DNA of 40,949 nt from Acidimicrobiaceae bacterium (GTDB lineage Bacteria > Actinomycetota > Acidimicrobiia > Acidimicrobiales > Aldehydirespiratoraceae): assembly GCA_009843915.1 (NCBI GenBank), contig VYCM01000108.1, positions 1 through 40,949 on the forward strand. Direction: 5' to 3'. Both the position numbers and the translations under genes were made by a program. The notes under the pieces are model-generated. The model was not told where the DNA came from and made no database searches. It worked only from the letters and a program-made list of their open reading frames with translations. Positions 8,882 through 36,846 of the stretch are shown here, in pieces. Every line of letters begins with the position of its first letter. Position 1 is the stretch's first letter.

Positions 8882-8931
8882 TGCAGCCGGCGTCCAACTC
8901 CAGTCCCGATCGCGCAGAAAGCAGGGATGCA

Positions 8932-9702
8932 ATGTTCTCAGTCACAGACAAGGTGGTGCTGGTCACCGGCGGCGGCAGCGGGATAGGTCTGGCCACCGTG
9001 AAGCGCCTGCTGGCCGCGGGGGCCTCCGTCGCCTTCTGCAACCGCTCGGACCACTCCGAGCTGGCCGACCGGTTAGGGGCCACCTTCATCCGGGCTGACG
9101 TGAGCGACGAGGAGCAGGTCCGGGCCCTCATGAGCCAGGTAAGCGACCGGCTGGGATCCATCGACGTCCTGGTCAACAACGCCGGCGTCTGGGACTTCGA
9201 CTGCCCTATCACCACCGGAGACACCGGAGCCTTCCGGCGTGACCATGAGGTCAACGTGATGGGCACGGTCTACTGCATCAAGCACGGCGCGCCGGCCATG
9301 AAGGACGGCGGGGTGATCATCAACGTCTCCTCCCTGGCGGCCCACATCTCGCTGCCCGAGTACGGCCCCTACAGCGCATCCAAGGCGGCGGTGGACGCCG
9401 TCACCCGCAGCGCGGCCATCGAACTCGGCGACCGCGGCATCCGGGTGGTGGCCATCGCGCCGGGCACGGTGGCCACTGAGAGCCTGGCGGACGAGACCGA
9501 CTCGGAGGCCGAGGTGGCCGCCTTCAACCGGCTTACCCCCCTACGGCGGGTCTGCGAGATGGACGAGGTGGCCGCCACGATCCACTTCCTGGCCTCCGAC
9601 GACTGCCGCTACATCAGCGGCAGCTCGCTGCTGCTCGACGGCGGAATGTTGGCGGGCCTCTCGGTCGGCCTGTGCGAGATGCTGATTTCGGCCGGCGAGT
9701 GA
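8932..9702 (+). CDS. Short-chain dehydrogenase/reductase (256 aa)
   Basis: A classical SDR: TGGGSGIG at 12-19, VNNAG at 81-85, catalytic S134, Y147 (YSASK) and K151, and a C-terminal LLLDGGMLAGL end typical of the family. After beta-2 the sequence reads FCNRSD, with no acidic residue at the usual NAD-selecting place and an Arg instead, which leans to NADP(H); this is tentative. The ATG at 8932 is chosen because it opens the conserved beta-1 strand; the frame is open upstream into the TetR gene but has no better start. It follows TetR by 50 bp and its stop overlaps the next frame, so it belongs to an operon with the lipoyl-E1 protein. It probably makes or consumes a keto acid, aldehyde or alcohol for that complex. 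Confidence 0.92.
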   Translation: MFSVTDKVVLVTGGGSGIGLATVKRLLAAGASVAFCNRSDHSELADRLGATFIRADVSDEEQVRALMSQVSDRLGSIDVLVNNAGVWDFDCPITTGDTGAFRRDHEVNVMGTVYCIKHGAPAMKDGGVIINVSSLAAHISLPEYGPYSASKAAVDAVTRSAAIELGDRGIRVVAIAPGTVATESLADETDSEAEVAAFNRLTPLRRVCEMDEVAATIHFLASDDCRYISGSSLLLDGGMLAGLSVGLCEMLISAGE

Positions 9703-9707
9703 CCCCC

Positions 9708-11273
9708 ATGAGCGAAGAGGTACTCATGCCCAAGGTCGGCATGTCGACCAGCGAGATCGTCCTCAACGAGTGGCTCGTCTCATCGGGCGACGAGGTCGTC
9801 GAGGACCAGGTCATCGCCACCGTCGAGAGCGAGAAGACGGTGGTCGAGGTCGAGGCCGTCTGCGACGGTTTCATCGACATCCGGCTCGACGAGGGCGAGG
9901 AGGCGAGACCGGGCGAGCTGATCGCCGTGATCGGCGAGAGCGCGGAGGCGGCCAGAGACGCCCGCGGCCCGGCGCCAGCGCGGGCGCCTGCGACCGTGAG
10001 CACCGTCGTCGCCGCTGAGCCGGTCGTCGTGTCCGATGACAGGGTCGTGATGCTCGACGGCGCGCCGCGGGTCGTCGCCACCCCCGCGGCCCAGAGACTC
10101 GCAGAGCAACACGGCCTCGATCTGTCGACTGTGGACGCGACCGGCCCGAGGGGACGCGTCACGAAGGCCGACGTCGAACGCGCGGTAGCAGGCGCGGCGG
10201 CAGACCCCGCCCCTGTCCCGGACTCGCTCCCAACCGCCGACGAAGCGCCCGAGCCCGTGAGCCGACCGGAGTCCCGACCGCGCCAAGAACGCCCGCCCGC
10301 CGGCAACGACCCCGATCTGCAGAGGGCCCTCCATCGCGAGATGCTGCGGGCCCGCGCCCTGGACGAGGGTCACATGCGCTTCATAAGGCGGGGACGGTGC
10401 GAGAGCATGTCCCACCCCGCCACCGGCCAGGAGGCGATCTCGGCCGGCATCACGGCGGCGCTCGAGCCCGAAGACATCCTCTACCCGACATTCCGGGGGT
10501 TCGGCGACTACCTCGGCAGGGGCACCGACATGAACGCCCTCGTGGCAGAACTGATGGGGCGGCAAACGGGCATCAACCGCGGCGTCGGCGGCATACATCT
10601 CGGCGACCGGGAGCACAACACTCACGGGGTGTCGGGCGTTCTGGGCGCCAACCTGACCATGGCAGCCGGATCGGCCCAGGCGGTCAAGATGCGCGGCGAG
10701 GCTCGGGTGGTGATGGTCCATGTGGGCGAGGGCGCCTTCAACACCCCGGACTCCCACGCCATGATGAACATGGCCGCCATCTGGAGCCTCCCGCTGGTGA
10801 TCATCGTGGCCAACAACCAGGTCGTGGAGTTCAGCTACCACGATGTCCACTTCCCCCCGGACGCCGAGGGCGTCGGGAGCCGGGCCGGCTACTACGGGAT
10901 CCCCAACGAGTGCGTCGACGGCAACGACGTGGAGCTCGTCTACGGCGAGGCCCTCGAAGCCGTCGAGGCGGCCCGCAGCGGCAACGGACCGGTGTTGCTG
11001 GAGTTGGTCACCTGCCGCATCGCCGGCCACTTCGACGCCGACCCCCTCACCTACATCGACGACGGCCTGGTCGAGGAGTGGAAGGGCAGGGATCCGATCA
11101 GCCGCTACGAGGCGATCCTGATCCAGCGGGGAACGATGGACGCCGGCGCGGTCGAGGCGGCCCGAGCCGCGGCCCGTGAAGAGGTCGACACCGCCTTCAA
11201 GCGGGCCCTGGAGGACGAGCTGCCCAGCGCTGGCTACGTGTTCGAGAACCTGGCCGAGACCGGGGTGCTGTGA
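9708..11273 (+). CDS. Fusion: lipoyl domain + peripheral subunit-binding domain + 2-oxoacid dehydrogenase E1 alpha (521 aa)
   Basis: Three parts normally split between two proteins lie in one chain. Residues 2-78 are a biotinyl/lipoyl domain, with K43 in ESEKTVVEVEA as the lipoylation site. After an Ala/Pro linker, residues about 121-160 (ATPAAQRLAEQHGLDLS, then TGPRGRVTKADV) form the small E1/E3-binding domain of E2 proteins. A second Pro-rich linker (161-200) leads to a full E1-alpha domain (201-521) with the thiamine-diphosphate loop GEG at 340-342 to N369/N370, and H441 in the loop that carries phosphorylation sites in mammalian enzymes. No E2 transacylase domain is present. The complex would decarboxylate a 2-oxoacid and reductively acylate its own lipoyl arm. 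Possible starts: GTG 9699 (overlapping the SDR stop), ATG 9708, or ATG 9726 behind AAGAGG; all keep the domains. The stop overlaps E1 beta. Confidence 0.92.
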   Translation: MSEEVLMPKVGMSTSEIVLNEWLVSSGDEVVEDQVIATVESEKTVVEVEAVCDGFIDIRLDEGEEARPGELIAVIGESAEAARDARGPAPARAPATVSTVVAAEPVVVSDDRVVMLDGAPRVVATPAAQRLAEQHGLDLSTVDATGPRGRVTKADVERAVAGAAADPAPVPDSLPTADEAPEPVSRPESRPRQERPPAGNDPDLQRALHREMLRARALDEGHMRFIRRGRCESMSHPATGQEAISAGITAALEPEDILYPTFRGFGDYLGRGTDMNALVAELMGRQTGINRGVGGIHLGDREHNTHGVSGVLGANLTMAAGSAQAVKMRGEARVVMVHVGEGAFNTPDSHAMMNMAAIWSLPLVIIVANNQVVEFSYHDVHFPPDAEGVGSRAGYYGIPNECVDGNDVELVYGEALEAVEAARSGNGPVLLELVTCRIAGHFDADPLTYIDDGLVEEWKGRDPISRYEAILIQRGTMDAGAVEAARAAAREEVDTAFKRALEDELPSAGYVFENLAETGVL

Positions 11274-12253
11274 GCATGGCGGTGGTGAAGTACATGGACG
11301 CCCTGACGGACGCGCTGCGCGAGGAGATGCAGCGCGACGACCGCGTCTTCCTGCTCGGCGAGGACATCAGGGTCTCCAACCTCGGCATCACCGCCGGCCT
11401 GGCCGAGGAGTTCGGCACCGAGCGGGTTGTCGACACCCCCATCCACGAGAACGCGCTAGTCGGTGTGGCCATGGGTGCGGCGCTCGAGGGCATGAGGCCC
11501 GTCGTCGAGATCATGTTCTCGGACTTCGCGCTGCTGGCCGCCGACCAGATCGTGAACCAGGTGGCCCAGTGGCGGTACATGACCCAGGGCCAGTACGAGG
11601 TGCCGCTGGTGATCCGCATGCCCACCGGCGGAGGCTTCGCCTACGGCCTGCACCACTCTCAGTCCACCGAGACCCACTTCTTCCAGACGCCCGGCCTGCC
11701 CATCGCCATGCCGTCCACCCCGGCCGACGCCAAGGGTCTCCTGAAGACCGCGATCCGCTCGAACGACCCCGTCCTGTTCCTTGAGCACATGCTCCTGTGT
11801 CTCCAGAACGCGGAATCGGATGTACCCGACGGCGACCATCTGGTGCCGTTCGGGGAGGCGGCCGTCCGCCGGGAGGGCAGCGACGTCACCGTGGTCGCCT
11901 TCGGCGCCATGGTGAACCAGGCCCTGATCGCCGCGGAGACGCTGGCAGAGCAGGGGGTCTCCGTCGAGGTCGTCGACCCCCGCACCATCGTCCCGCTCGA
12001 TGCTGAAACGATCTTCGCCTCGGTGGCCAAGACCAACCGGCTGGTGATCATCGAGGAGAGCCGCATACGCGGCGGCCTCGGCGCCGAGCTGGCAGCCCAG
12101 GCCGCAGCCGGCGACAACTTCTTCCTGCTGGACGCCCCCATCGAGCGGGTGGCGGCCCCGAACATTCCCGTGCCGAGCACGTCGCAGTTGGAGCAGGCCT
12201 ACCTCCCCGACGCGGGCAAGCTCATCGAGGCGATCCACCGCACGCTGGCCTGA
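11270..12253 (+). CDS. 2-oxoacid dehydrogenase E1 beta subunit (327 aa)
   Basis: The transketolase-like partner of the E1-alpha domain just upstream, forming the alpha2beta2 thiamine-diphosphate enzyme of pyruvate, branched-chain or acetoin dehydrogenase type. Seen features are LGEDI near the start, the DTPIHENALVGVAMGAAL block that includes the catalytic Glu binding the thiamine pyrimidine, the YGLHHSQSTETHF loop with the His expected at the lipoyl channel, and a C-terminal transketolase domain beginning at about residue 200 with the VDPRTIVPLD and IIEESR motifs. It starts at GTG 11270, overlapping the previous stop as GTGA, or at ATG 11276. Length is standard (320-340 aa). Substrate could be pyruvate, acetoin or a branched 2-oxoacid; sequence alone does not decide. 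A strong hairpin follows its stop. Confidence 0.94.
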   Translation: MSMAVVKYMDALTDALREEMQRDDRVFLLGEDIRVSNLGITAGLAEEFGTERVVDTPIHENALVGVAMGAALEGMRPVVEIMFSDFALLAADQIVNQVAQWRYMTQGQYEVPLVIRMPTGGGFAYGLHHSQSTETHFFQTPGLPIAMPSTPADAKGLLKTAIRSNDPVLFLEHMLLCLQNAESDVPDGDHLVPFGEAAVRREGSDVTVVAFGAMVNQALIAAETLAEQGVSVEVVDPRTIVPLDAETIFASVAKTNRLVIIEESRIRGGLGAELAAQAAAGDNFFLLDAPIERVAAPNIPVPSTSQLEQAYLPDAGKLIEAIHRTLA

Positions 12254-12298: not shown

Positions 12299-12316
12299 CG
12301 AGGGCGTTAGCCCTCG
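12299..12316. terminator. Second hairpin, over the stop codon of the binding-protein gene
   Basis: CGAGGGC (12299-12305), loop GTTA, GCCCTCG (12310-12316) make a perfect 7 bp stem with a tetraloop. The loop contains the stop codon of the minus-strand solute-binding protein. Together with the hairpin at 12254-12284 it isolates the two converging units. Confidence 0.5.
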
Positions 12317-13746
12317 AGCAGGAAGTTCAGCTCGGTGAAGTCGAGCGGGAAGAACCCGTCGGGCGCGGTCAGATCGGTGCCGTCAACCGTCACCATCAGG
12401 GGCGCGGTGTTGCAGGCGCCGATCCAGGGAGCCGGTCCGGGGCACGACACCTCGGGGAAGCCCAGGATCGTGTTGCTGGTGAAGCCGCTGTCGAGCGTGG
12501 CGATCACCGACTCGTCAGTGGCATCGGCACCGCCGGCCGCGATCAGGACCTCGCGGGCGATCATCACGTTGCCGAGGGCCCAGCCGCCGAGCCCGGCGCC
12601 GTGTGCGTCTGCCGAGCCGTAGGTGTCGAAGATGTGGTTGATCACCTCGACATCGGCCCCGCCGTCAATGGTGGGCGCCGACGAGACCATCGGCGCGACC
12701 CAGCCGTCGAGGTCGCCCGTGGCGAGCACGTCGACCTGCATGCACGAGTCCAGGGTCAGGATGGGGCCGTCGTAGCCGATCAACTTGGCCGCGTTGGCCG
12801 CGGCCTGGCACTGGGCTCCATCGGCGAGAACGAACATCCACACGTCGTTGGACATGTCGGCCGCAGAGATCGGGCCGGTGAGGTCAGGCTCGAACCCGAC
12901 CGGGATGTGCTGGTTCATATCGATGCCGTTGTCGGCCGCGATGGCCTGGAACGCGGGCACGAACACCTCGACGCTGGGGTCGTCGTACAGGAACAGGGTC
13001 GCGCTGGTCGCCCCGCCAGCGGCTGAGTACACGAACAACACCTGGGACAGGCCGGGTATGCCGGGCTCGAAGGTGTACACGCCGGGGGTGAGGTACTCCC
13101 CGAAGTCGTTGCCGAGAGGCATCGACGCCAGGCCGGCTTCGGCCATGACCGCACCCGAGGCCCCGGTGTTGGTGCCGATGCCGCCGTTCACCACGATGTG
13201 AATGTCGTCGTCGTTGACGAACCGCTGGGCGCAGGCCAGGTGGCTCTCGGGCCCGTCGCCGGCGCCGCAGATGTCGATCTCCACCGGGTGCCCGTCGATG
13301 CCGCCGAGCTCGGCATTGAAGTACGCCACCACGGCTTCGGCCGCGGCCCGCATCTCCGGGAAGGCGATGAGCTCCTCCTCCTGGGCGATCATGCCGATCT
13401 TCACCGCTGGAAGCGAGTCATCGGCAGCCCCGCCGGCCATGTCGTCGGCCACCGCTTTATCAGCCATATCATCGGCCACCGCTTCATCAGCCATGTCATC
13501 GGCCACCGGCTCATCAGCCATGTCATCGGCCACCGCTTCATCAGCCATGTCATCGGCCACCGGCTCATCAGCCATGTCATCGGCATCGTCGGCGGGGGCC
13601 TCGGCCGGCTCGGCCGGTGCTGCTTCGGCCGGCTCGGCGGCCGGCGCCGGCGCTTCGTCCTCGTCATCACCACAGGCGGCCGCGACCAGCGCGAAAACGA
13701 GCGCGACGGCCGACAGGCGGAACATGTTCTTCCTCAGGTGCCTCAT
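12307..13746 (-). CDS. Lipoprotein solute-binding protein of a Liv-type ABC importer (479 aa)
   Basis: A periplasmic-binding-protein type 1 (LivJ/urea/amide-like) receptor tethered to the membrane. Residues 1-24 are a lipoprotein signal (basic MRHLRKNMFRL, hydrophobic core, VAAAC) with lipid-anchored C25. Residues 26-112 are an acidic Ala/Pro/Asp linker holding five 9-residue repeats (ADDMADEPV/A type). The ligand domain begins at VKIG near residue 115. The ATG at 13746 has a GAGGAG site 10 nt upstream; an in-frame start at 13779 would spoil the signal peptide. It is a full-length paralogue of the binding protein at 29247-30617, with matching cysteines and the shared stretches GFEPDLTGP, ADGAQC and ELNFLL near the end. 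No permease lies beside it, so it probably feeds the LivHM-LivG-LivF importer encoded at 25518-29159. The gene diverges from the Rieske operon. Confidence 0.93.
   Translation of the reverse strand: MRHLRKNMFRLSAVALVFALVAAACGDDEDEAPAPAAEPAEAAPAEPAEAPADDADDMADEPVADDMADEAVADDMADEPVADDMADEAVADDMADKAVADDMAGGAADDSLPAVKIGMIAQEEELIAFPEMRAAAEAVVAYFNAELGGIDGHPVEIDICGAGDGPESHLACAQRFVNDDDIHIVVNGGIGTNTGASGAVMAEAGLASMPLGNDFGEYLTPGVYTFEPGIPGLSQVLFVYSAAGGATSATLFLYDDPSVEVFVPAFQAIAADNGIDMNQHIPVGFEPDLTGPISAADMSNDVWMFVLADGAQCQAAANAAKLIGYDGPILTLDSCMQVDVLATGDLDGWVAPMVSSAPTIDGGADVEVINHIFDTYGSADAHGAGLGGWALGNVMIAREVLIAAGGADATDESVIATLDSGFTSNTILGFPEVSCPGPAPWIGACNTAPLMVTVDGTDLTAPDGFFPLDFTELNFLLEG
13447..13581 (-). repeat. 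Five tandem 27-bp repeats inside the binding-protein linker
   Basis: Units begin at 13447, 13474, 13501, 13528 and 13555. Each encodes nine residues (reading ADDMADE then P or A then V). Units 2 and 4 are identical, as are 3 and 5, which differ at the P/A codon; unit 1 carries two further changes. The pattern is that of recent slippage or duplication of a 54-bp double unit. Confidence 0.9.
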
Positions 13747-13826
13747 TTGTCTGGTTCTCCTCGCCCACCGGTCGGGCATCCGGTGCCCGGCCCCGCGAGC
13801 TGTCGGTTCTCCCCGCTGCCCATCGC

Positions 13827-16008: not shown

Positions 16009-16782
16009 ATGGCCCACCTGTCGTGGCCGGCGTACGCCGAGCGGATCGCCAACGGCGCGGTGGTGCTGATCCCGGTGGGAGCGCTGGAGCAGCACGGCCG
16101 CCACCTGCCCCTCGGTGTGGACTTCATGCTGGCCGAAGCGGTGGCGCTGGCCACGGCCGAGCACGTCGATGCCGTGGTCGCCCCGCCGTTCGTCTACGGC
16201 TACAAGTCGCAGCTGCGCACCGGCGGCGGACCCCAGTTCGCCGGTACCGTCGGCCTTGACGGCCACTCACTGTCGAGCGCGATCACCGACGTGCTGCGCG
16301 GCCTCGCCCGCGGCGGGGCCGACAAGCTGGCCATCGTCGACGGGCACTACGAGAACCAGATGTTCCTCACCGAGGCGTGCGACCTGGCCATCCGGGAGTT
16401 CCGCCAGAGCGGGCGGGACGGCGTCAAGATCGTGCAGGCCCGTTACTTCGAGCAGTTCGACGAGGCCATCCTCAAGCGCCACGTCGGTGGCCCGCCTCTG
16501 GACCTCGCCTACGAGCACGCCGGGGTCTTCGAGACCTCCCTGTTCCTGCACCTCTTCGGCGACCTGGTCGACATGGACGCCGCGCCGGAGCAGGCCTTCA
16601 AGGAGTTCCCCAGCTACGACTGCCACCCTCCCCACGACGACTGGGTACCGGCGACGGGAGCGCTGTCGGATCCCCATCGGGCAACGGCGGCGCTGGGACG
16701 GGAGATCTTCGACGCCTGCGTGCAGGGCATGGTGCGCATCCTGGAGACCGAGTTTGGCCCTGAGGGGGACGGGAGCAATTGA
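16009..16782 (+). CDS. Creatininase-family amidohydrolase (257 aa)
   Basis: A metal-dependent cyclic-amide hydrolase. The two-metal ligand set of Pseudomonas creatininase (E34, H36, D45, H120, E122 from memory) maps with identical spacing onto E27, H29, D38, H113 and E115, and the HYEN motif, YKSQ, TGGG and EH-AGVFETS (E169/H170) regions are also alike. This places it nearer to true creatininase than to the MftE or ArfB branches, whose motif is usually HGGN. However, the two aromatic lid residues W154 and W174 appear as F147 and L166, so the substrate may not be creatinine. ATG 16009 is preceded by AGGGG; a GTG at 15973 overlapping the SDR stop is an alternative start adding 12 residues. The stop overlaps the acyl-CoA synthetase start. 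Confidence 0.87.
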   Translation: MAHLSWPAYAERIANGAVVLIPVGALEQHGRHLPLGVDFMLAEAVALATAEHVDAVVAPPFVYGYKSQLRTGGGPQFAGTVGLDGHSLSSAITDVLRGLARGGADKLAIVDGHYENQMFLTEACDLAIREFRQSGRDGVKIVQARYFEQFDEAILKRHVGGPPLDLAYEHAGVFETSLFLHLFGDLVDMDAAPEQAFKEFPSYDCHPPHDDWVPATGALSDPHRATAALGREIFDACVQGMVRILETEFGPEGDGSN

Positions 16783-18917
16783 CGATGCGGCTCGGCGATC
16801 GGATGCGCAGCGGCATCGGGGCCCTGCTCGACCCCCGGTCGGTGGCCGTCGTCGGGGCCTCCGACCGCGAGGGCTCGTTCGGCGGCGAGTGCCTCGACAA
16901 CCTCCGGGGCCACGGCTACCGGCACGAGCTGATGGCGGTCCACCCCAGGCACACCGAGGTGCGAGGCGTGGACTGCGTCCCGAGCCTCGAAGCGTGCCAG
17001 GGCGAGTTCGACGCGGTTGTGTTGGCTGTCGGCGCAGGCCGGGTTCTCGACACCCTCAAGCAGGCCATCGCGGCCGGGGCTCGCAGCGCCATCGTGTTCG
17101 CCTCCGGCTTCGGCGACGGGGGCGCAGAGGGCAAGGCCCAGGAGACGGAGCTGGCCCGCATCGCCAGCAACGCCGGGATGGCCGTGGTCGGCCCGAACTG
17201 CCTGGGCACCATGAACCGCCACACCGGAGCCACCCTCTGGGGCACCTACATGAAGCGGCTGGGAGCCCCAGGACCGGTCTCGATCATCGCCCAGAGCGGC
17301 TCGGTGGCCCAGATGCTGTCCATCGACGACCGGGGCCTGGGGATCGCCAGCATCCTGTCCACCGGCAACGAAGCGGTGGTCACCTCCGCCCATGCCCTAA
17401 ACCACCTGGCCGACGATCCCTTCACCGAAGTGGTCCTGCTGTTCATCGAGACGATCCGCGACCCAACCGCCTTCGCGGCCGCGGCCCGGCGGGCCCGGGC
17501 CAACGGCAAGCGTCTGGCCGTGGTGCGCAACGGCCGCAGCGAGACCGGCTCGGCCACCATCGCCGGCCACACCGGCGGGCTGGCCGGCGACGACGCCGTG
17601 TACTCAGCCTTCTTCGAGCGGCTCGGCATCCCCCGCTTCAACGACATCGACACCCTGCTGGAGGCCGGGGCCTACCTGCTCGCCTTCAAAGATCCGCCCA
17701 CCAGCGGTGGATTGGGCGTCATGACGCTGTCGGGCGGCGAGGCCGGGCTGGCCGCCGACCTCGCCGACGATGCCGGGCTGGAACTGCCGCCGTTCTCCGA
17801 TGAGGGCGCGACCAGCCTCAACGAACTACTGCCAGACTTCCGTTCGCCCAACAACCCGATGGACGGCATAACCCTCGGCTTCGATGTCGAGGGTGTGCGC
17901 ACTGTCTGCGATGCCATGGCCGGCGACACCGCCTTCGGCACGGTGGCCATGGTCTTCGGTGCCCCCGCCGCCGGCGGCCATGACGACGCCTTCGTGCTCG
18001 ACGTGATGCAGGACGGCCTGCTGACCGAGCCGGACGCCGACACCAGGCTGGTCATCGTCAACACGGTGGCAGCCCTCGGACGGAATGCACAGCTCGAGCA
18101 GCGAGCCCGCGAGTTGGGCGGCGTGATGCTTCAAGGCCTGCGGGCCGGACTCGAGGTGATCTCCAAGTGCGGGGACGCCGCTCCCCCGGCAGCAATGCCG
18201 AGGCTGGCCGATGTGGCCGCCCCGGCCGGGCTCGCAGGCTGGGACGGCCTGGATGAGGCGGCACGCTTCGAGGTGATGAACCGAGCGGGAGTGCCGATGG
18301 TGGAGTGCCGGCTGGTCGGCGACCGCGCCGAGGCCGTGACCGCGCTGCACCAGTGGGGCCGCCCGATCGTGCTCAAGGGGTGCGCACCCGATCTGGCCCA
18401 CAAGACCGAGCACGGTCTCGTCAAGACCAACCTGACGGAGGCCGTCGCCGTTGAAGCGGCGTTCAACGACATCGTCGCCGTCCTCGGAGAACTCAACCTG
18501 GCGGGCTCGCACGTCGTGGCCCAGCCCATGGCCCGGGACGGGTTGGAGCTCATCGTCGGCGTGCGCAACGAGCCGGGATTCGGCCCGATGCTGGTGGTCG
18601 GTCCCGGAGGCGTGCTCGTCGACCTGATCAGCGAGGCCAGCATCCATGCCGCCCCGATCAGCGAGGACACCGCGGCGGAGATCGTGTCGACCGGCCGCAT
18701 CGGCCGGCTCATCGACGGCTACCGCGGTGCCGGACCATTCGACCGGGATGCGGCCGCGCGGGCCCTCGTCGCCATGTCGGAGTTCGCGTGGGCGGCCCGC
18801 CACCACATCTCGTTCGCGGAGATCAACCCGCTCATCGTCCACGCCGACGGTGCGTCGGCCGTTGACATCGCCCTCTCGCGGCGCGGGCCGACCTCTCAAC
18901 CGGACGTCCAACCATGA
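16779..18917 (+). CDS. ADP-forming acyl-CoA synthetase, fused alpha-beta (712 aa)
   Basis: It would activate a carboxylic acid to its CoA thioester with ATP, releasing ADP and phosphate. Domains in order: CoA-binding Rossmann domain (about 15-140, opening with DPRSVAVVGASDREGSFG), two succinyl-CoA-ligase-like domains (GPNCLG 138-143, QSGSV 172-176), the phosphohistidine site H264 in GHTGGLAG, and a C-terminal ATP-grasp domain from about residue 490 ending in EINPLIV. Single-chain fused forms of about 700 aa are common in actinobacteria. The start is TTG at 16779 overlapping the creatininase stop, or ATG at 16785. It is coupled to MaoC by an ATGA overlap. Place in the operon suggests it activates the acid freed by the amidohydrolase. 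Confidence 0.93.
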   Translation: MTMRLGDRMRSGIGALLDPRSVAVVGASDREGSFGGECLDNLRGHGYRHELMAVHPRHTEVRGVDCVPSLEACQGEFDAVVLAVGAGRVLDTLKQAIAAGARSAIVFASGFGDGGAEGKAQETELARIASNAGMAVVGPNCLGTMNRHTGATLWGTYMKRLGAPGPVSIIAQSGSVAQMLSIDDRGLGIASILSTGNEAVVTSAHALNHLADDPFTEVVLLFIETIRDPTAFAAAARRARANGKRLAVVRNGRSETGSATIAGHTGGLAGDDAVYSAFFERLGIPRFNDIDTLLEAGAYLLAFKDPPTSGGLGVMTLSGGEAGLAADLADDAGLELPPFSDEGATSLNELLPDFRSPNNPMDGITLGFDVEGVRTVCDAMAGDTAFGTVAMVFGAPAAGGHDDAFVLDVMQDGLLTEPDADTRLVIVNTVAALGRNAQLEQRARELGGVMLQGLRAGLEVISKCGDAAPPAAMPRLADVAAPAGLAGWDGLDEAARFEVMNRAGVPMVECRLVGDRAEAVTALHQWGRPIVLKGCAPDLAHKTEHGLVKTNLTEAVAVEAAFNDIVAVLGELNLAGSHVVAQPMARDGLELIVGVRNEPGFGPMLVVGPGGVLVDLISEASIHAAPISEDTAAEIVSTGRIGRLIDGYRGAGPFDRDAAARALVAMSEFAWAARHHISFAEINPLIVHADGASAVDIALSRRGPTSQPDVQP

Positions 18918-33503: not shown

Positions 33504-33611
33504 AGATGAAATGCAAGCGTTTCTCATCGTAGAGTGTCGCCGTGGCAGCTCGCGGAGGCCGCGGCCGAGCGGCTGGCGAGCGCAGCGAGCGAGAGCGGAA
33601 GGAACGAGAGG

Positions 33612-35690
33612 ATGCGGCAGATCCTGGATCCGGCAGGCGAGCTGGTGGGACCGGCCCCGGATCTTGACGACTCGCAGCTCGTCGACATGTTCCGCCTGCT
33701 GCTCACCACCCGGATGGCCGACGAGAAGTTGCTCAACCTCCAGCGCCAGGGACGCATGCCCGCCTACTACCAGGTGAGCGGCCAGGAGGCCCATGTGGGG
33801 GCGGCTCTGGCGCTGCGGGAGACCGACTGGCTCTTCACCGCCTACCGGGAGCTGGGCATGTGGCTGGCCCGGGGCATGAGCCCCATCGCCGCGGTCGGCC
33901 TGTGGATGGGCGTGGCCGACGACGACGACCTCTGGGACGTTCGCCGCTACCGGGTGACCCGTCTCAACGCCACCATCGGCACCCATCTCCCCCACGCGGT
34001 GGGCTTCGGCTACGCCGAGCGGCTCCAGGGACGCGACACGGTGGCCATGGTGGTGTTCGGCGACGGGGCCACCTCGGAGTCCGACTTCCATGCGGCCATG
34101 AACTTCGCGGGGGTATGGAAGACCCCCACCGTGTTCCTGTGCCAGAACAACCAGGTGGCCCAGTCGACCACCATCGACAAGCAGACTGCGGCGGCCACGC
34201 TGGCCGCCAAGGCCGACGGGTACGGGTTCTGCGGCGAGCGCGTCGACGGCATGGACCCGCTGGCCATGTACCAGGCGGCCCGCGAGGCCGTGGAGCGGGC
34301 CGCCTCGGGCGGAGGCCCCGCCCTCATCGAGATGCTCACCTACCGGTTCGCACCACACTCGACGTACGACGGCACGCCGGTGTACCGCACCACGGACGAG
34401 GAGTCCCAGTGGCGCGAGCGGGACCCCATCACCCGGATGCGGGCCTTCCTGGTGAACAAGGGCCTGTGGGAGACCGGGCAGGAGGACGACATGAGGGCCG
34501 GGATCTCGGCCGACCTCGAGGCGTTCGTCGACCAGCTCGAGGCCCGGCCGCCGGTGTCGCGCCACTACTCGCCCCGGCAGCTGTTCGCCCGGGCGCCTGC
34601 CTCCCTGACCGAGCAGTTGCACCGCGAGCAGCAGGACGCCGGCGAGGCCCCAGCCGCGCTGGAGCCCGACGAGGTGTGGACCGTCGCTGAAGACCCGTCG
34701 CCCACCGGCGAGACCCACCGGCTCGACATGACCGAGGCCCTCAAGCTGACACTGCACGCGGCCTTCGAGCGCGATCCGTCGCTGGTGACGCTGGGGGAGG
34801 ACGTGGGCGTGGAGGGCGGCGTGTTCCGGATCACCGAGGGCATGCACGAGCGCTTCGGCGCCGACCGGGTGATCGACACCCCGCTGTGCGAGACCGGCAT
34901 CATGGGCACTGCCGTGGGCATGGCCATGGCCGGGCTGAGGCCGGTGGCCGAGATCGAGTTCGCGGGCTTCGTGTACCCGGCCTTCGACCAGCTCATCGGC
35001 CATGTGGCCCGTATCCGGTGGCGCTACCGGGGTCACTTGACCGCTCCGGTGGTGGCCCGGCTGCCGGTGGGAACCAACCTCGACAACCACGAGTTCCACA
35101 CCGACTCACCCGAATCGCTCTTCACCCACGCGCCCGGGCTGGTGGTGGTGTATCCCTCCAACCCCTACGACGCCAAGGGCCTCATGGAGTCGGCGCTGGC
35201 CAGCGACGATCCGGTGGTGTTCCTGGAGCCCATCTCGCTGTACCGGGGGCTCAAGCAGGACGTGCCCGTCGAGCCCTACGGGATCCCGTTCGGGCGCGCC
35301 CGGGTGCTCCGCGAAGGCACCGACGTAACCGTCGTGTCGTGGGGTCCGCCGGCGCGCCAGGCGCTCAAGGCGTCCGAGACCCTCGCCAACGAGGGTGTGT
35401 CGGCTGAGGTCGTCGACCTGCGGACCTTGTATCCGTGGGACCGCGAGACCGTGCTCGACAGCGTGGAGCGGACCGGGCGGCTGGTGGTGGCCCATGAGGC
35501 CCAGACGACGAGCGGATTCGGCGCCGAGGTGTTGGCCGCGGTCAGCGAGCAGGGTCTCTACTCCTTGGAGGCGCCCCCGGTGCGGGTGGCCCACATGGAC
35601 GTCTTCTGGGGTCCGACGCAGCTCGAGCGGTACTCGATGGTCACCGCCGAGCGCATCGCCGCCGGCGTCCGCCGAGCTCTGGCCGACTGA
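33612..35690 (+). CDS. 2-oxoacid dehydrogenase E1, fused alpha and beta subunits (692 aa)
   Basis: A thiamine-diphosphate enzyme like branched-chain 2-oxoacid or pyruvate dehydrogenase E1 with both subunits in one chain. Alpha (about 1-345): YYQVSGQEAHVG, TAYRELG, the cofactor loop GDG (150-152) to N179/N180, and RFAPHSTYDG with H249. After a Pro/Glu linker, beta (about 366-692): LGEDVGVEGGVFR, DTPLCETGIMGTAVGMA, HTDSPESLF and DLRTLYPWD. YREL instead of YRxH resembles branched-chain enzymes (YREAG in human). The frame opens at GTG 33534, but ATG 33612 has AAGGA at a good distance and starts the conserved part; the extra 26 residues are an Ala/Arg-rich stretch over a CGAGCG repeat. It is followed after 1 bp by E2. 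Such fused E1 proteins are known in several phyla. Confidence 0.93.
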   Translation: MRQILDPAGELVGPAPDLDDSQLVDMFRLLLTTRMADEKLLNLQRQGRMPAYYQVSGQEAHVGAALALRETDWLFTAYRELGMWLARGMSPIAAVGLWMGVADDDDLWDVRRYRVTRLNATIGTHLPHAVGFGYAERLQGRDTVAMVVFGDGATSESDFHAAMNFAGVWKTPTVFLCQNNQVAQSTTIDKQTAAATLAAKADGYGFCGERVDGMDPLAMYQAAREAVERAASGGGPALIEMLTYRFAPHSTYDGTPVYRTTDEESQWRERDPITRMRAFLVNKGLWETGQEDDMRAGISADLEAFVDQLEARPPVSRHYSPRQLFARAPASLTEQLHREQQDAGEAPAALEPDEVWTVAEDPSPTGETHRLDMTEALKLTLHAAFERDPSLVTLGEDVGVEGGVFRITEGMHERFGADRVIDTPLCETGIMGTAVGMAMAGLRPVAEIEFAGFVYPAFDQLIGHVARIRWRYRGHLTAPVVARLPVGTNLDNHEFHTDSPESLFTHAPGLVVVYPSNPYDAKGLMESALASDDPVVFLEPISLYRGLKQDVPVEPYGIPFGRARVLREGTDVTVVSWGPPARQALKASETLANEGVSAEVVDLRTLYPWDRETVLDSVERTGRLVVAHEAQTTSGFGAEVLAAVSEQGLYSLEAPPVRVAHMDVFWGPTQLERYSMVTAERIAAGVRRALAD

Positions 35691-35691
35691 A

Positions 35692-36846
35692 GTGGCGCAC
35701 GTCTTCAAGCTCCCGGCCGTGGGCGACACCATGGTCGAGGGCGAGATCGTGGAATGGCTCGTCGAGGTGGGTGACACCGTCGAGCTCGACGAGCCCATCT
35801 GCTCGATCGAGACCGACAAGTCGGTGGTGGAGATGACCACCCCCTACCGGGGCACGGTGCTGGCCCTCGGGGGAGAGCCCGGCGATGTCATCGAGGTGGG
35901 CGAGACCCTCATCGTGGTGGGCGAGCCGGGCGAGGAAGTCCCCGCGGACGAGCCCGAACCAGAGTCTGCGGCCGCCGCGGCTTCGATCCCGCACCAGATC
36001 GCCGCGCCGGCCCCGCCCCAGCTGGACCCGTCCGACTCTGTCAAGGCCCTGCCCAAGGCTCGGAAACTGGCCCGGGAGCGGGGCATCGACCTGGCCGCCG
36101 TGGCCGGCACCGGGCCAGGCGGCTCGATCACCGTCGCCGACGTCGAAGCAGCAGCCACGCCGCCCCCGGCGAGCGGTCGGCGGACGCGGTTGTCGGCCAC
36201 CCGACGCTCCATCGCCCGGCACATGACTGAGTCCATGCAGATCCCGCAGTTCACTTCGATGGTGGACGCCGACGCGAGCGGCCTGTTGGAAGCACGGGCA
36301 GCCGCAGCCGCCGAGACCGGCTCGCGAGTGTCGCTCGATGCTCTGCTGATGGCGCTGCTGGTGCCTGTGCTGCGGGACCATCCCGTCATGAACGCCAGGC
36401 TCGACGGCGACGAGATCGAGTACTTCGAGCGCTACGACATCGGTGTGGCCGTCGACACTCCCGACGGGCTGATGGTGCCGGTGGTGGGGGGCGCCGACGC
36501 CCTCTCAGTGGCGGAGCTGTCGGTCGAGGTCCTGCGCCTGGCCGCGGCGGCTCGTGACCGTACCTTGGCGCCCCACGAGCTGGCCGGGGCGACGGCCACC
36601 GTCAACAACGTGGGCGCGCTCGGGATGCTGGCCGGCACGCCGATGCTGCCGGTGGGCACCAGCATGATCGCTGCCTTCGGCATGGCCCGGCCGGTCGTAA
36701 GGCTGATCGATGGCATTCCGACGGAGGTGCCGACCATGACCGTGTCGGCCACGTTCGACCACCGCATCATCGACGGTGGCGCCAGCGGCCGCTTCCTGGC
36801 CCAGCTCAAGGAAGCCATCGAGGAGGCAGCCCACGGCGCACCCTGA
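35692..36846 (+). CDS. Dihydrolipoyl acyltransferase E2 (384 aa)
   Basis: The core of the second 2-oxoacid dehydrogenase complex; transfers the acyl group from lipoate to CoA. Lipoyl domain 1-78 with K43 in IETDKSVVEMTT, Ala/Pro linker, subunit-binding domain 118-155 (PKARKLARERGIDLAAV, then GSITVADVE), second linker, catalytic domain about 163-384 with RRSIARHM and the active site H357-x3-D361 in DHRIIDGG. Short for an E2 (single lipoyl domain). GTG start at 35692, one base after the E1 stop, chosen because it opens the lipoyl domain; the frame extends upstream only into E1. No E3 (dihydrolipoyl dehydrogenase) follows, so it must be supplied from elsewhere in the genome. Confidence 0.95.
   Translation: MAHVFKLPAVGDTMVEGEIVEWLVEVGDTVELDEPICSIETDKSVVEMTTPYRGTVLALGGEPGDVIEVGETLIVVGEPGEEVPADEPEPESAAAAASIPHQIAAPAPPQLDPSDSVKALPKARKLARERGIDLAAVAGTGPGGSITVADVEAAATPPPASGRRTRLSATRRSIARHMTESMQIPQFTSMVDADASGLLEARAAAAAETGSRVSLDALLMALLVPVLRDHPVMNARLDGDEIEYFERYDIGVAVDTPDGLMVPVVGGADALSVAELSVEVLRLAAAARDRTLAPHELAGATATVNNVGALGMLAGTPMLPVGTSMIAAFGMARPVVRLIDGIPTEVPTMTVSATFDHRIIDGGASGRFLAQLKEAIEEAAHGAP

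Follow-up and report, generated by a model that had tools for sequence, protein, structure and literature searches.

The locus analyzed here raises the question of what an E1 does with its acyl group when it carries its own swinging arm and its operon encodes no transferase. Arm, dock and transferase are usually regarded as parts of a single E2 chain, the one that builds the core of a 2-oxoacid dehydrogenase complex. On a contig of 40,949 nt from an Acidimicrobiaceae bacterium (assembly GCA_009843915.1, contig VYCM01000108.1; the whole contig is called the window), a lipoyl domain and a subunit-binding domain are joined to E1 alpha. An earlier note, made from this sequence, had read the arrangement as an E1 with its own arm and E3 dock, possibly working in a coreless complex.

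Layout of the fused gene and its operon

The frame at 9708-11273 is a single open reading frame on the plus strand, which runs from ATG to TGA, has no internal stop and encodes 521 aa. Pfam detected three domains, all exceeding the gathering score, and the gene is tightly flanked on both sides:

8932..9702, plus strand: SDR oxidoreductase (Pfam adh_short_C2, 216.4 bits)
9708..11273, plus strand: fusion of lipoyl domain, peripheral subunit-binding domain and E1 alpha (521 aa)
9717..9932, plus strand: lipoyl domain, residues 4-75 (Pfam Biotin_lipoyl, 43.5 bits, cut-off 22.1)
10071..10178, plus strand: peripheral subunit-binding domain, residues 122-157 (Pfam E3_binding, 57.7 bits, cut-off 23.7)
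10188..10307, plus strand: second linker, residues 161-200 (alignment; median dN/dS 0.57)
10338..11219, plus strand: E1 alpha domain, residues 211-504 (Pfam E1_dh, 179.3 bits, cut-off 22)
11270..12253, plus strand: E1 beta (Pfam Transket_pyr and Transketolase_C; NF006667, 331.7 bits, cut-off 321)

The SDR stop codon lies 5 bases upstream of the fusion ATG, and the GTG of E1 beta overlaps the fusion TGA (an alternative in-frame start is the ATG at 11276). The 5-base gap and the start of E1 beta at the fusion stop suggest that SDR, fusion and E1 beta form one operon. Lys43 of the lipoyl domain (codon 9834-9836) lies within the motif ESEKT. The open reading frame and the Pfam matches thus agree with the earlier note, which had placed a lipoyl domain with K43, a subunit-binding domain and E1 alpha in one chain, followed by E1 beta. 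Its statement that chain and operon lack the transacylase domain was confirmed as well, by Pfam and by synteny: no match to PF00198 (2-oxoacid_dh) was found in either, the closest on the contig being at a distance of 25 kb.

With an E1_dh match above the gathering score and an E1 beta partner at 11270, the chain has the features of a 2-oxoacid dehydrogenase E1 alpha (PF00676). Of the features of an E2 acyltransferase, it has the lipoyl and peripheral subunit-binding domains and lacks PF00198. The E1 alpha domain and E1 beta align over their full length with solved E1s, and the E1 is predicted to be of the 2-oxoacid dehydrogenase type. The scores with the NCBIfam models for pyruvate dehydrogenase E1 alpha are below the cut-offs (TIGR03182, 212.5 bits, cut-off 393.85; TIGR03181, 204.8 bits, cut-off 411.35).

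The operon lies within an oxidative gene cluster (92-32616), which contains Rieske oxygenases, flavin monooxygenase-like, P450-like and F420-type oxidoreductase-like genes and several SDRs, together with creatininase, AroM, an NDP-forming acyl-CoA ligase and genes of a branched-chain amino acid-type ABC transporter. Part of this cluster is conserved, and partly rearranged, in the related loci L043-L050. The gene at 12307-13779 on the minus strand encodes a periplasmic binding protein; near its N-terminus, VADDMADE-like units recur in an acidic stretch.

Conservation and selection in the genus

The genus (Acidimicrobiaceae-type) was represented by 16 genomes from a 61-genome search and a public genome scan; the latter, which is limited to close relatives, gave 21 loci, of which 8 are the locus of the fusion. 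The fusion is intact in seven of the 16, the genome of the window (G000) and G002, G007, G011, G013, G014 and G015, and the six further chains are 83-95% identical to that of the window. Conservation free of frameshifts, a check that the earlier note had proposed, was thus found in all seven assemblies. The locus is unfused in two genomes (G001, locus L049; G009, locus L050), and no close match to it was found in the remaining genus genomes searched (G003, G004, G005, G006, G008, G010 and G012). A Pfam rescan of five of the six other fusions (L045 was left out) and of both unfused E2s returned the expected domains.

The median pairwise dN/dS values of the seven fused genes, which rest on 20 or 21 of the 21 pairs, are 0.16 for the lipoyl domain (residues 1-78), 0.22 for the binding domain (120-160) and 0.23 for E1 alpha (201-521), revealing purifying selection on all three. 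The two linkers have higher values, 0.68 for the first and 0.57 for the second. Lys43 is retained in all seven fused chains, LipA is encoded, and attachment of lipoyl is predicted. The low dN/dS values together with the retention of Lys43 suggest that all three fused domains are probably in use.

The role of the binding domain is less clear. The earlier note had taken it for an E3 dock, and the E3_binding score of the fusion is indeed higher than the 45 bits of the unfused E2s. However, compared with the E2 of 3duf, the first Arg of an Arg-Lys/Arg pair is replaced by Gln in all seven fused chains. This Arg is presumably a contact residue. Because a conserved Arg was lost in every fused chain, docking of E3 to this domain is uncertain.

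The copy of the locus in the window (8900-12075) is recombinant. It matches G015 exactly (1.000) between 8900 and about 10.3 kb and G007 exactly (1.000) beyond about 10.9 kb, which places the switch at about 10.3-10.9 kb, inside the fused gene. In addition, a tree of a second E2 of these genomes (the C98 E2, see below), which has weak basal support, intermixes fused, unfused and locus-free genomes. Both results suggest that the locus seems to move within the genus.

Unfused relatives and origin of the fusion

At the two unfused loci, the same SDR and E1 beta genes that flank the fusion enclose two separate genes, an E2 of 426 aa and an E1 alpha of 324 aa that starts at an ATG of its own (11319). 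The SDR gene adjoins in all nine loci, and in two of the nine genomes having the locus the E2 gene lies directly between it and a separate E1 alpha. The earlier note had asked whether neighbors always lack E2; this is true for the seven fused operons and not for the two unfused loci. Both unfused E2s contain a lipoyl domain, an E3_binding domain and a 2-oxoacid_dh domain (186.5 and 190.9 bits). The catalytic domain aligns lengthwise with the E2 of 3duf and has DHRLVNG in place of DHRMIDG; the E2 of A. vinelandii reportedly also has Asn at this position.

The fused chains align with the unfused E2 through the end of the binding domain; the remainder follows E1 alpha, starting near the third residue of the latter, and the catalytic domain is absent. 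The linker of residues 161-200 marks the site that the E2 catalytic domain and the E1 alpha start occupy at the unfused loci. The E2 and E1 alpha genes are in different frames in L049, whereas they form one joined frame in the fused chains. The E2 adjoining E1 alpha shows the source of the fused lipoyl and binding domains, and the fusion is best read as the E2-E1 alpha gene pair minus the catalytic domain.

A move of the catalytic domain to another place in the genome was considered and rejected. With the L049 catalytic domain as query, 99-100% matches were obtained only in the two unfused genomes among the 16 of the genus. The best matches in the seven fused genomes had at most 40% identity and belonged to other E2s or to the OdhA-type chain. 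The lack of a closer match in the fused genomes suggests that this domain was most likely lost rather than relocated. An assembly gap could conceivably hide it in one incomplete MAG, but hardly in all seven (completeness of the fused MAGs 84-95%; G000 87.8%, 151 contigs).

The direction of the change was approached with trees. In a locus tree of the concatenated SDR, the gene before SDR, E1 alpha and E1 beta, the two unfused loci are split from the seven fused loci with 100/100 support. In an E1 alpha tree with distant outgroups, the unfused pair falls inside the fused group. Read literally, this tree would imply that the fusion arose more than once or that the catalytic domain was acquired again. 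Long branches, which were flagged as meeting, and the recombination mosaic make it unreliable for rooting; it is not neutral evidence, and we do not rely on it. The direction of loss rests therefore on the locus split and on the usual domain order of E2, which is the basis for reading the fusion as derived.

Other E1, E2 and E3 genes in the genome

The statement of the earlier note that there is no E2 holds for the immediate operon, yet not beyond it. Apart from the E2 beside E1 alpha at two of the nine loci, E2s are present elsewhere in the genome, and one of them lies in the window, as part of an E1 alpha-beta/E2 pair (33534-36846) 22 kb from the fusion:

33534..35690, plus strand: second, separate E1 with alpha and beta in one chain of 718 aa (translation; PF00676 at C103:33696-34550)
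35692..36846, plus strand: complete E2 with lipoyl, E3_binding and 2-oxoacid_dh domains, the last with 199 bits, and a DHRIIDG motif (Pfam, translation; start assumed to be the GTG at 35692)

These two genes form a compact complex, and the next genes encode an ABC ATPase and an FtsX-type permease; no E3 gene was seen there.

The genome contains six places with PF00676, three with PF00198 and three with E3_binding. The three PF00198 places are the E2 of the window, a frame of 1245 aa (C151) with PF00198 and PF00676 matches and thus an OdhA/KGD-like layout, and the C98 E2. The latter is of the mycobacterial type, its best solved relative being the E2 of PDB 9y7v (394 bits), and its gene lies beside the only lipoamide dehydrogenase gene of the genome above the cut-off and near LipA. 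All seven fused genomes have at least two other non-OdhA catalytic domains, and in each of them one lipoamide dehydrogenase and one LipA were found above the family cut-offs. As six E1 alphas face three catalytic domains in the window's genome, some sharing of E2s among its E1s is likely in any case.

E1 sets with a free lipoyl protein

An arm without a transferase domain also occurs in two other E1 sets of this genome. One (C13; L132:3442-5743) consists of E1 alpha, E1 beta, a lipoyl protein of 89 aa and an SDR, the other (C26; L130:3898-6913) of a lipoyl protein, an SDR and a single-chain E1 alpha-beta. The C13-type lipoyl protein is present with at least 85% identity in 14 of the 15 other genus genomes, the exception being G007. 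At 8 of 12 scanned loci a partial E1 alpha lies at most 1.5 kb from it, and a catalytic domain was found in none of these 12 short stretches.

Similar sets occur on plasmids. Eleven plasmid E1 loci were examined, picked among the matches listed (40 of 629 matching records). Four of them (Sphingobium sp. MI1205, Azospirillum sp. B510, Rubrobacter indicoceani and Shinella sp. WSC3-e; L149, L150, L151 and L156) encode E1 alpha, E1 beta and a free lipoyl protein of 76-80 aa, and an E2 was absent from the stretch examined. A full E2 is present at four others (Rhodococcus jostii RHA1, Priestia aryabhattai, A. brasilense and Natrinema sp. SYSU A 869), and neither a lipoyl protein nor an E2 was seen in the stretches of the remaining three (Rhodococcus sp. 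USK13, Solidesulfovibrio magneticus and Microbacterium sp.). Together with C13 and C26, the plasmid loci indicate that an arm-bearing E1 without a transferase is a repeated layout, of which the fusion is the covalent form.

The fusion itself was not seen outside the genus in samples of plasmids and of the class, phylum and order, which are a weak test. None of the 629 matching plasmid records covers 80% of the query in one place. Among 218 genomes of the class, one had a match at E <= 1e-58, and this was the window's own genome; among the 61 genomes sampled from the order, it was confined to members of the genus that the fusion was seen. An E1 alpha match at E <= 1e-55 was found in 13 of 395 other genomes of the phylum; eight of these have E1 alpha and E1 beta without a lipoyl or catalytic domain (in stretches of 6.5-11.5 kb), five have a transferase domain, and none is fused.

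Possible fates of the acyl group

We incline, with reserve, to the reading that the E2 catalytic domain was lost from an SDR-E2-E1 alpha-E1 beta operon and that the fused E1 uses an E2 in trans. The sequences establish four points: how the gene is laid out, that this layout is conserved, that an unfused syntenic form exists with the catalytic domain in place, and that no copy of this domain was found by searching the fused genomes. In this scheme, the ancestral operon would have dropped the catalytic domain, and the lipoyl and binding domains would have joined E1 alpha in frame. The alpha2-beta2 E1 would cleave its substrate with ThDP and reductively acylate its own tethered lipoyl-Lys43. The acyl-dihydrolipoyl domain would then move in trans to a shared E2, whose catalytic domain would form acyl-CoA, and the shared lipoamide dehydrogenase would re-oxidize the arm. 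Candidate acceptors are the C98 E2, near the E3 and LipA genes, and the E2 of the window 22 kb away; the pairing of the fusion with either would be by elimination. The fused E1 would thus act as a mobile feeder with an arm of its own, supplying a common E2/E3 hub. Exchange in trans has a precedent: according to PMC10415282, OdhA of C. glutamicum has a transferase but no arm, and uses the lipoyl groups of AceF in trans within a PDH/ODH supercomplex.

A coreless, CoA-free route, as suggested in the earlier note, would leave transfer out altogether. The E1 would charge its own arm, E3 would re-oxidize it, and the acyl group would be hydrolyzed or given to a small acceptor; any activation of the free acid would fall to a separate acyl-CoA ligase. 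The lack of a catalytic domain in the fused chain and operon fits this scheme, which would also extend to E1 operons whose lipoyl protein is free, namely C13, C26 and four of the 11 plasmid loci picked among the matches listed (40 of 629). AMP-binding acyl-CoA ligases adjoin two of these four (Sphingobium and Azospirillum), and the NDP-forming ligase of the window lies at 16779-18917. However, the latter is also found near unfused loci that retain their own E2 and thus does not track the loss of the catalytic domain, neither a hydrolase nor any other acceptor enzyme was seen with a specific link to the fusion, and every fused genome has kept E2s and an E3 able to serve in trans. We place borrowing in trans, because it needs nothing new, ahead of the coreless scheme, which persists as one conceivable consequence among several and seems unlikely to us. 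We are equally doubtful of its wider form, in which E1s with a private arm and no acyltransferase would be a coreless class of lipoate enzymes without E2-made acyl-CoA, to which this genus would have come by discarding the catalytic domain of an existing E2. Such a class would oxidize 2-oxoacids or hydroxyketones, with the arm fused here and free elsewhere. A different substrate could be combined with any of these routes. In an acetoin-type reaction, the SDR would produce an alpha-hydroxyketone by oxidizing a diol or another hydroxy compound; its cleavage by the E1 would release an aldehyde and leave an acyl group bound to the arm. The constant position of the SDR gene next to the fusion or its unfused counterpart would suit this, as would SDRs within or beside the E1 sets C13, C17 and C26, and the Rieske, P450 and flavin oxygenases in the surroundings. 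Among the NCBIfam matches of the SDR are models of butanediol dehydrogenase and of acetoin reductase, neither reaching the cut-off; its best match, though, is a glucose 1-dehydrogenase subfamily, just below the cut-off. Moreover, SDR genes are very common in the window, and E1 alpha and E1 beta score best with pyruvate dehydrogenase-type models (E1 alpha well below the cut-off), so that an acetoin-type substrate is possible, albeit on the unlikely side.

Two further alternatives concern the chain itself. Besides the full-length chain, the gene might give rise, through an internal start, to a free-standing E1 alpha, in which case the N-terminal part would serve as a subunit like the E3-binding protein. 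In-frame ATG, GTG or TTG codons do occur in the linker of six of the seven fused genes (ATG in G007 and G011), but their positions vary between genomes, G013 has none before the Met of LHREM, and the ATG of the unfused E1 alpha is not conserved in the alignment of the fused chains, which makes translation in two pieces improbable. An assembly error or a decaying gene might be suspected as those relatives for which a taxon is given are Acidimicrobiaceae or Acidimicrobiia MAGs. The former was rejected because the frame is intact in seven assemblies, and decay of the arm or the dock because dN/dS indicates purifying selection on the three domains; the probability left for either is negligible.

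The preferred reading, loss of the catalytic domain and acyl transfer in trans, would turn the two unfused and the seven fused genomes into a natural before-and-after pair, in which arm and dock move to the E1, the transferase is discarded and selection continues. The locus poses, with natural parts, the question of whether an E1-borne swinging arm passes its acyl group to a foreign E2 or needs no E2, and operons in which an E1 is accompanied by a free lipoyl protein but by no E2 pose it more widely.

Comparison with known systems

The earlier note knew of no characterized enzyme of this layout. Correspondingly, no description of a chain of lipoyl domain, binding domain and E1 alpha was found in the literature accessible in full or in part, including PMC10415282 and PMC6067878, with thin coverage of subscription journals; such an absence is weak evidence. 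A lipoyl domain on E1 beta is already known from a curated model, and what appears to be new, on this same weak evidence, is the chain with a binding domain and E1 alpha.

In this curated family (NCBIfam NF008854 / PRK11892), an E1 subunit likewise carries an N-terminal lipoyl domain, and residues 1-96 of the fusion match positions 1-98 of the model. However, the two halves of NF008854 match separate proteins here, the N-terminus of the fusion with 40.2 bits and E1 beta with 329.6 bits, both below the cut-off of 454. In the family the arm is on E1 beta, whereas the fusion has it on E1 alpha and has a subunit-binding domain in addition. Lipoyl-E1 beta chains occur in alphaproteobacteria beside a normal E2.

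The E3-binding protein, or protein X, combines a lipoyl and a binding domain without transferase activity and keeps an E2-like core domain. The fusion shares the first two domains and has a whole E1 alpha (E1_dh) instead of the core domain. E1 operons whose lipoyl protein is free (Sphingobium, Azospirillum, Rubrobacter, Shinella, C13 and C26) resemble it in having a private arm and no catalytic domain nearby, but there the arm is unattached, a protein of about 76-90 aa that lacks a binding domain.

The closest counterpart is the E2 of the two sister genomes, which has the same lipoyl and binding domains at the same syntenic place, next to the same E1 alpha and E1 beta. Unlike the fusion, it has kept its catalytic domain and is encoded by a separate gene. 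The actinobacterial OdhA/KGD proteins, as described in PMC10415282, are likewise E1s fused to a part of E2, in their case the E2o catalytic domain on E1o, with the missing part supplied in trans. They are the mirror image of the fusion: OdhA is a transferase without an arm, and the fusion an arm without a transferase, with its E1 alpha and E1 beta on separate chains.
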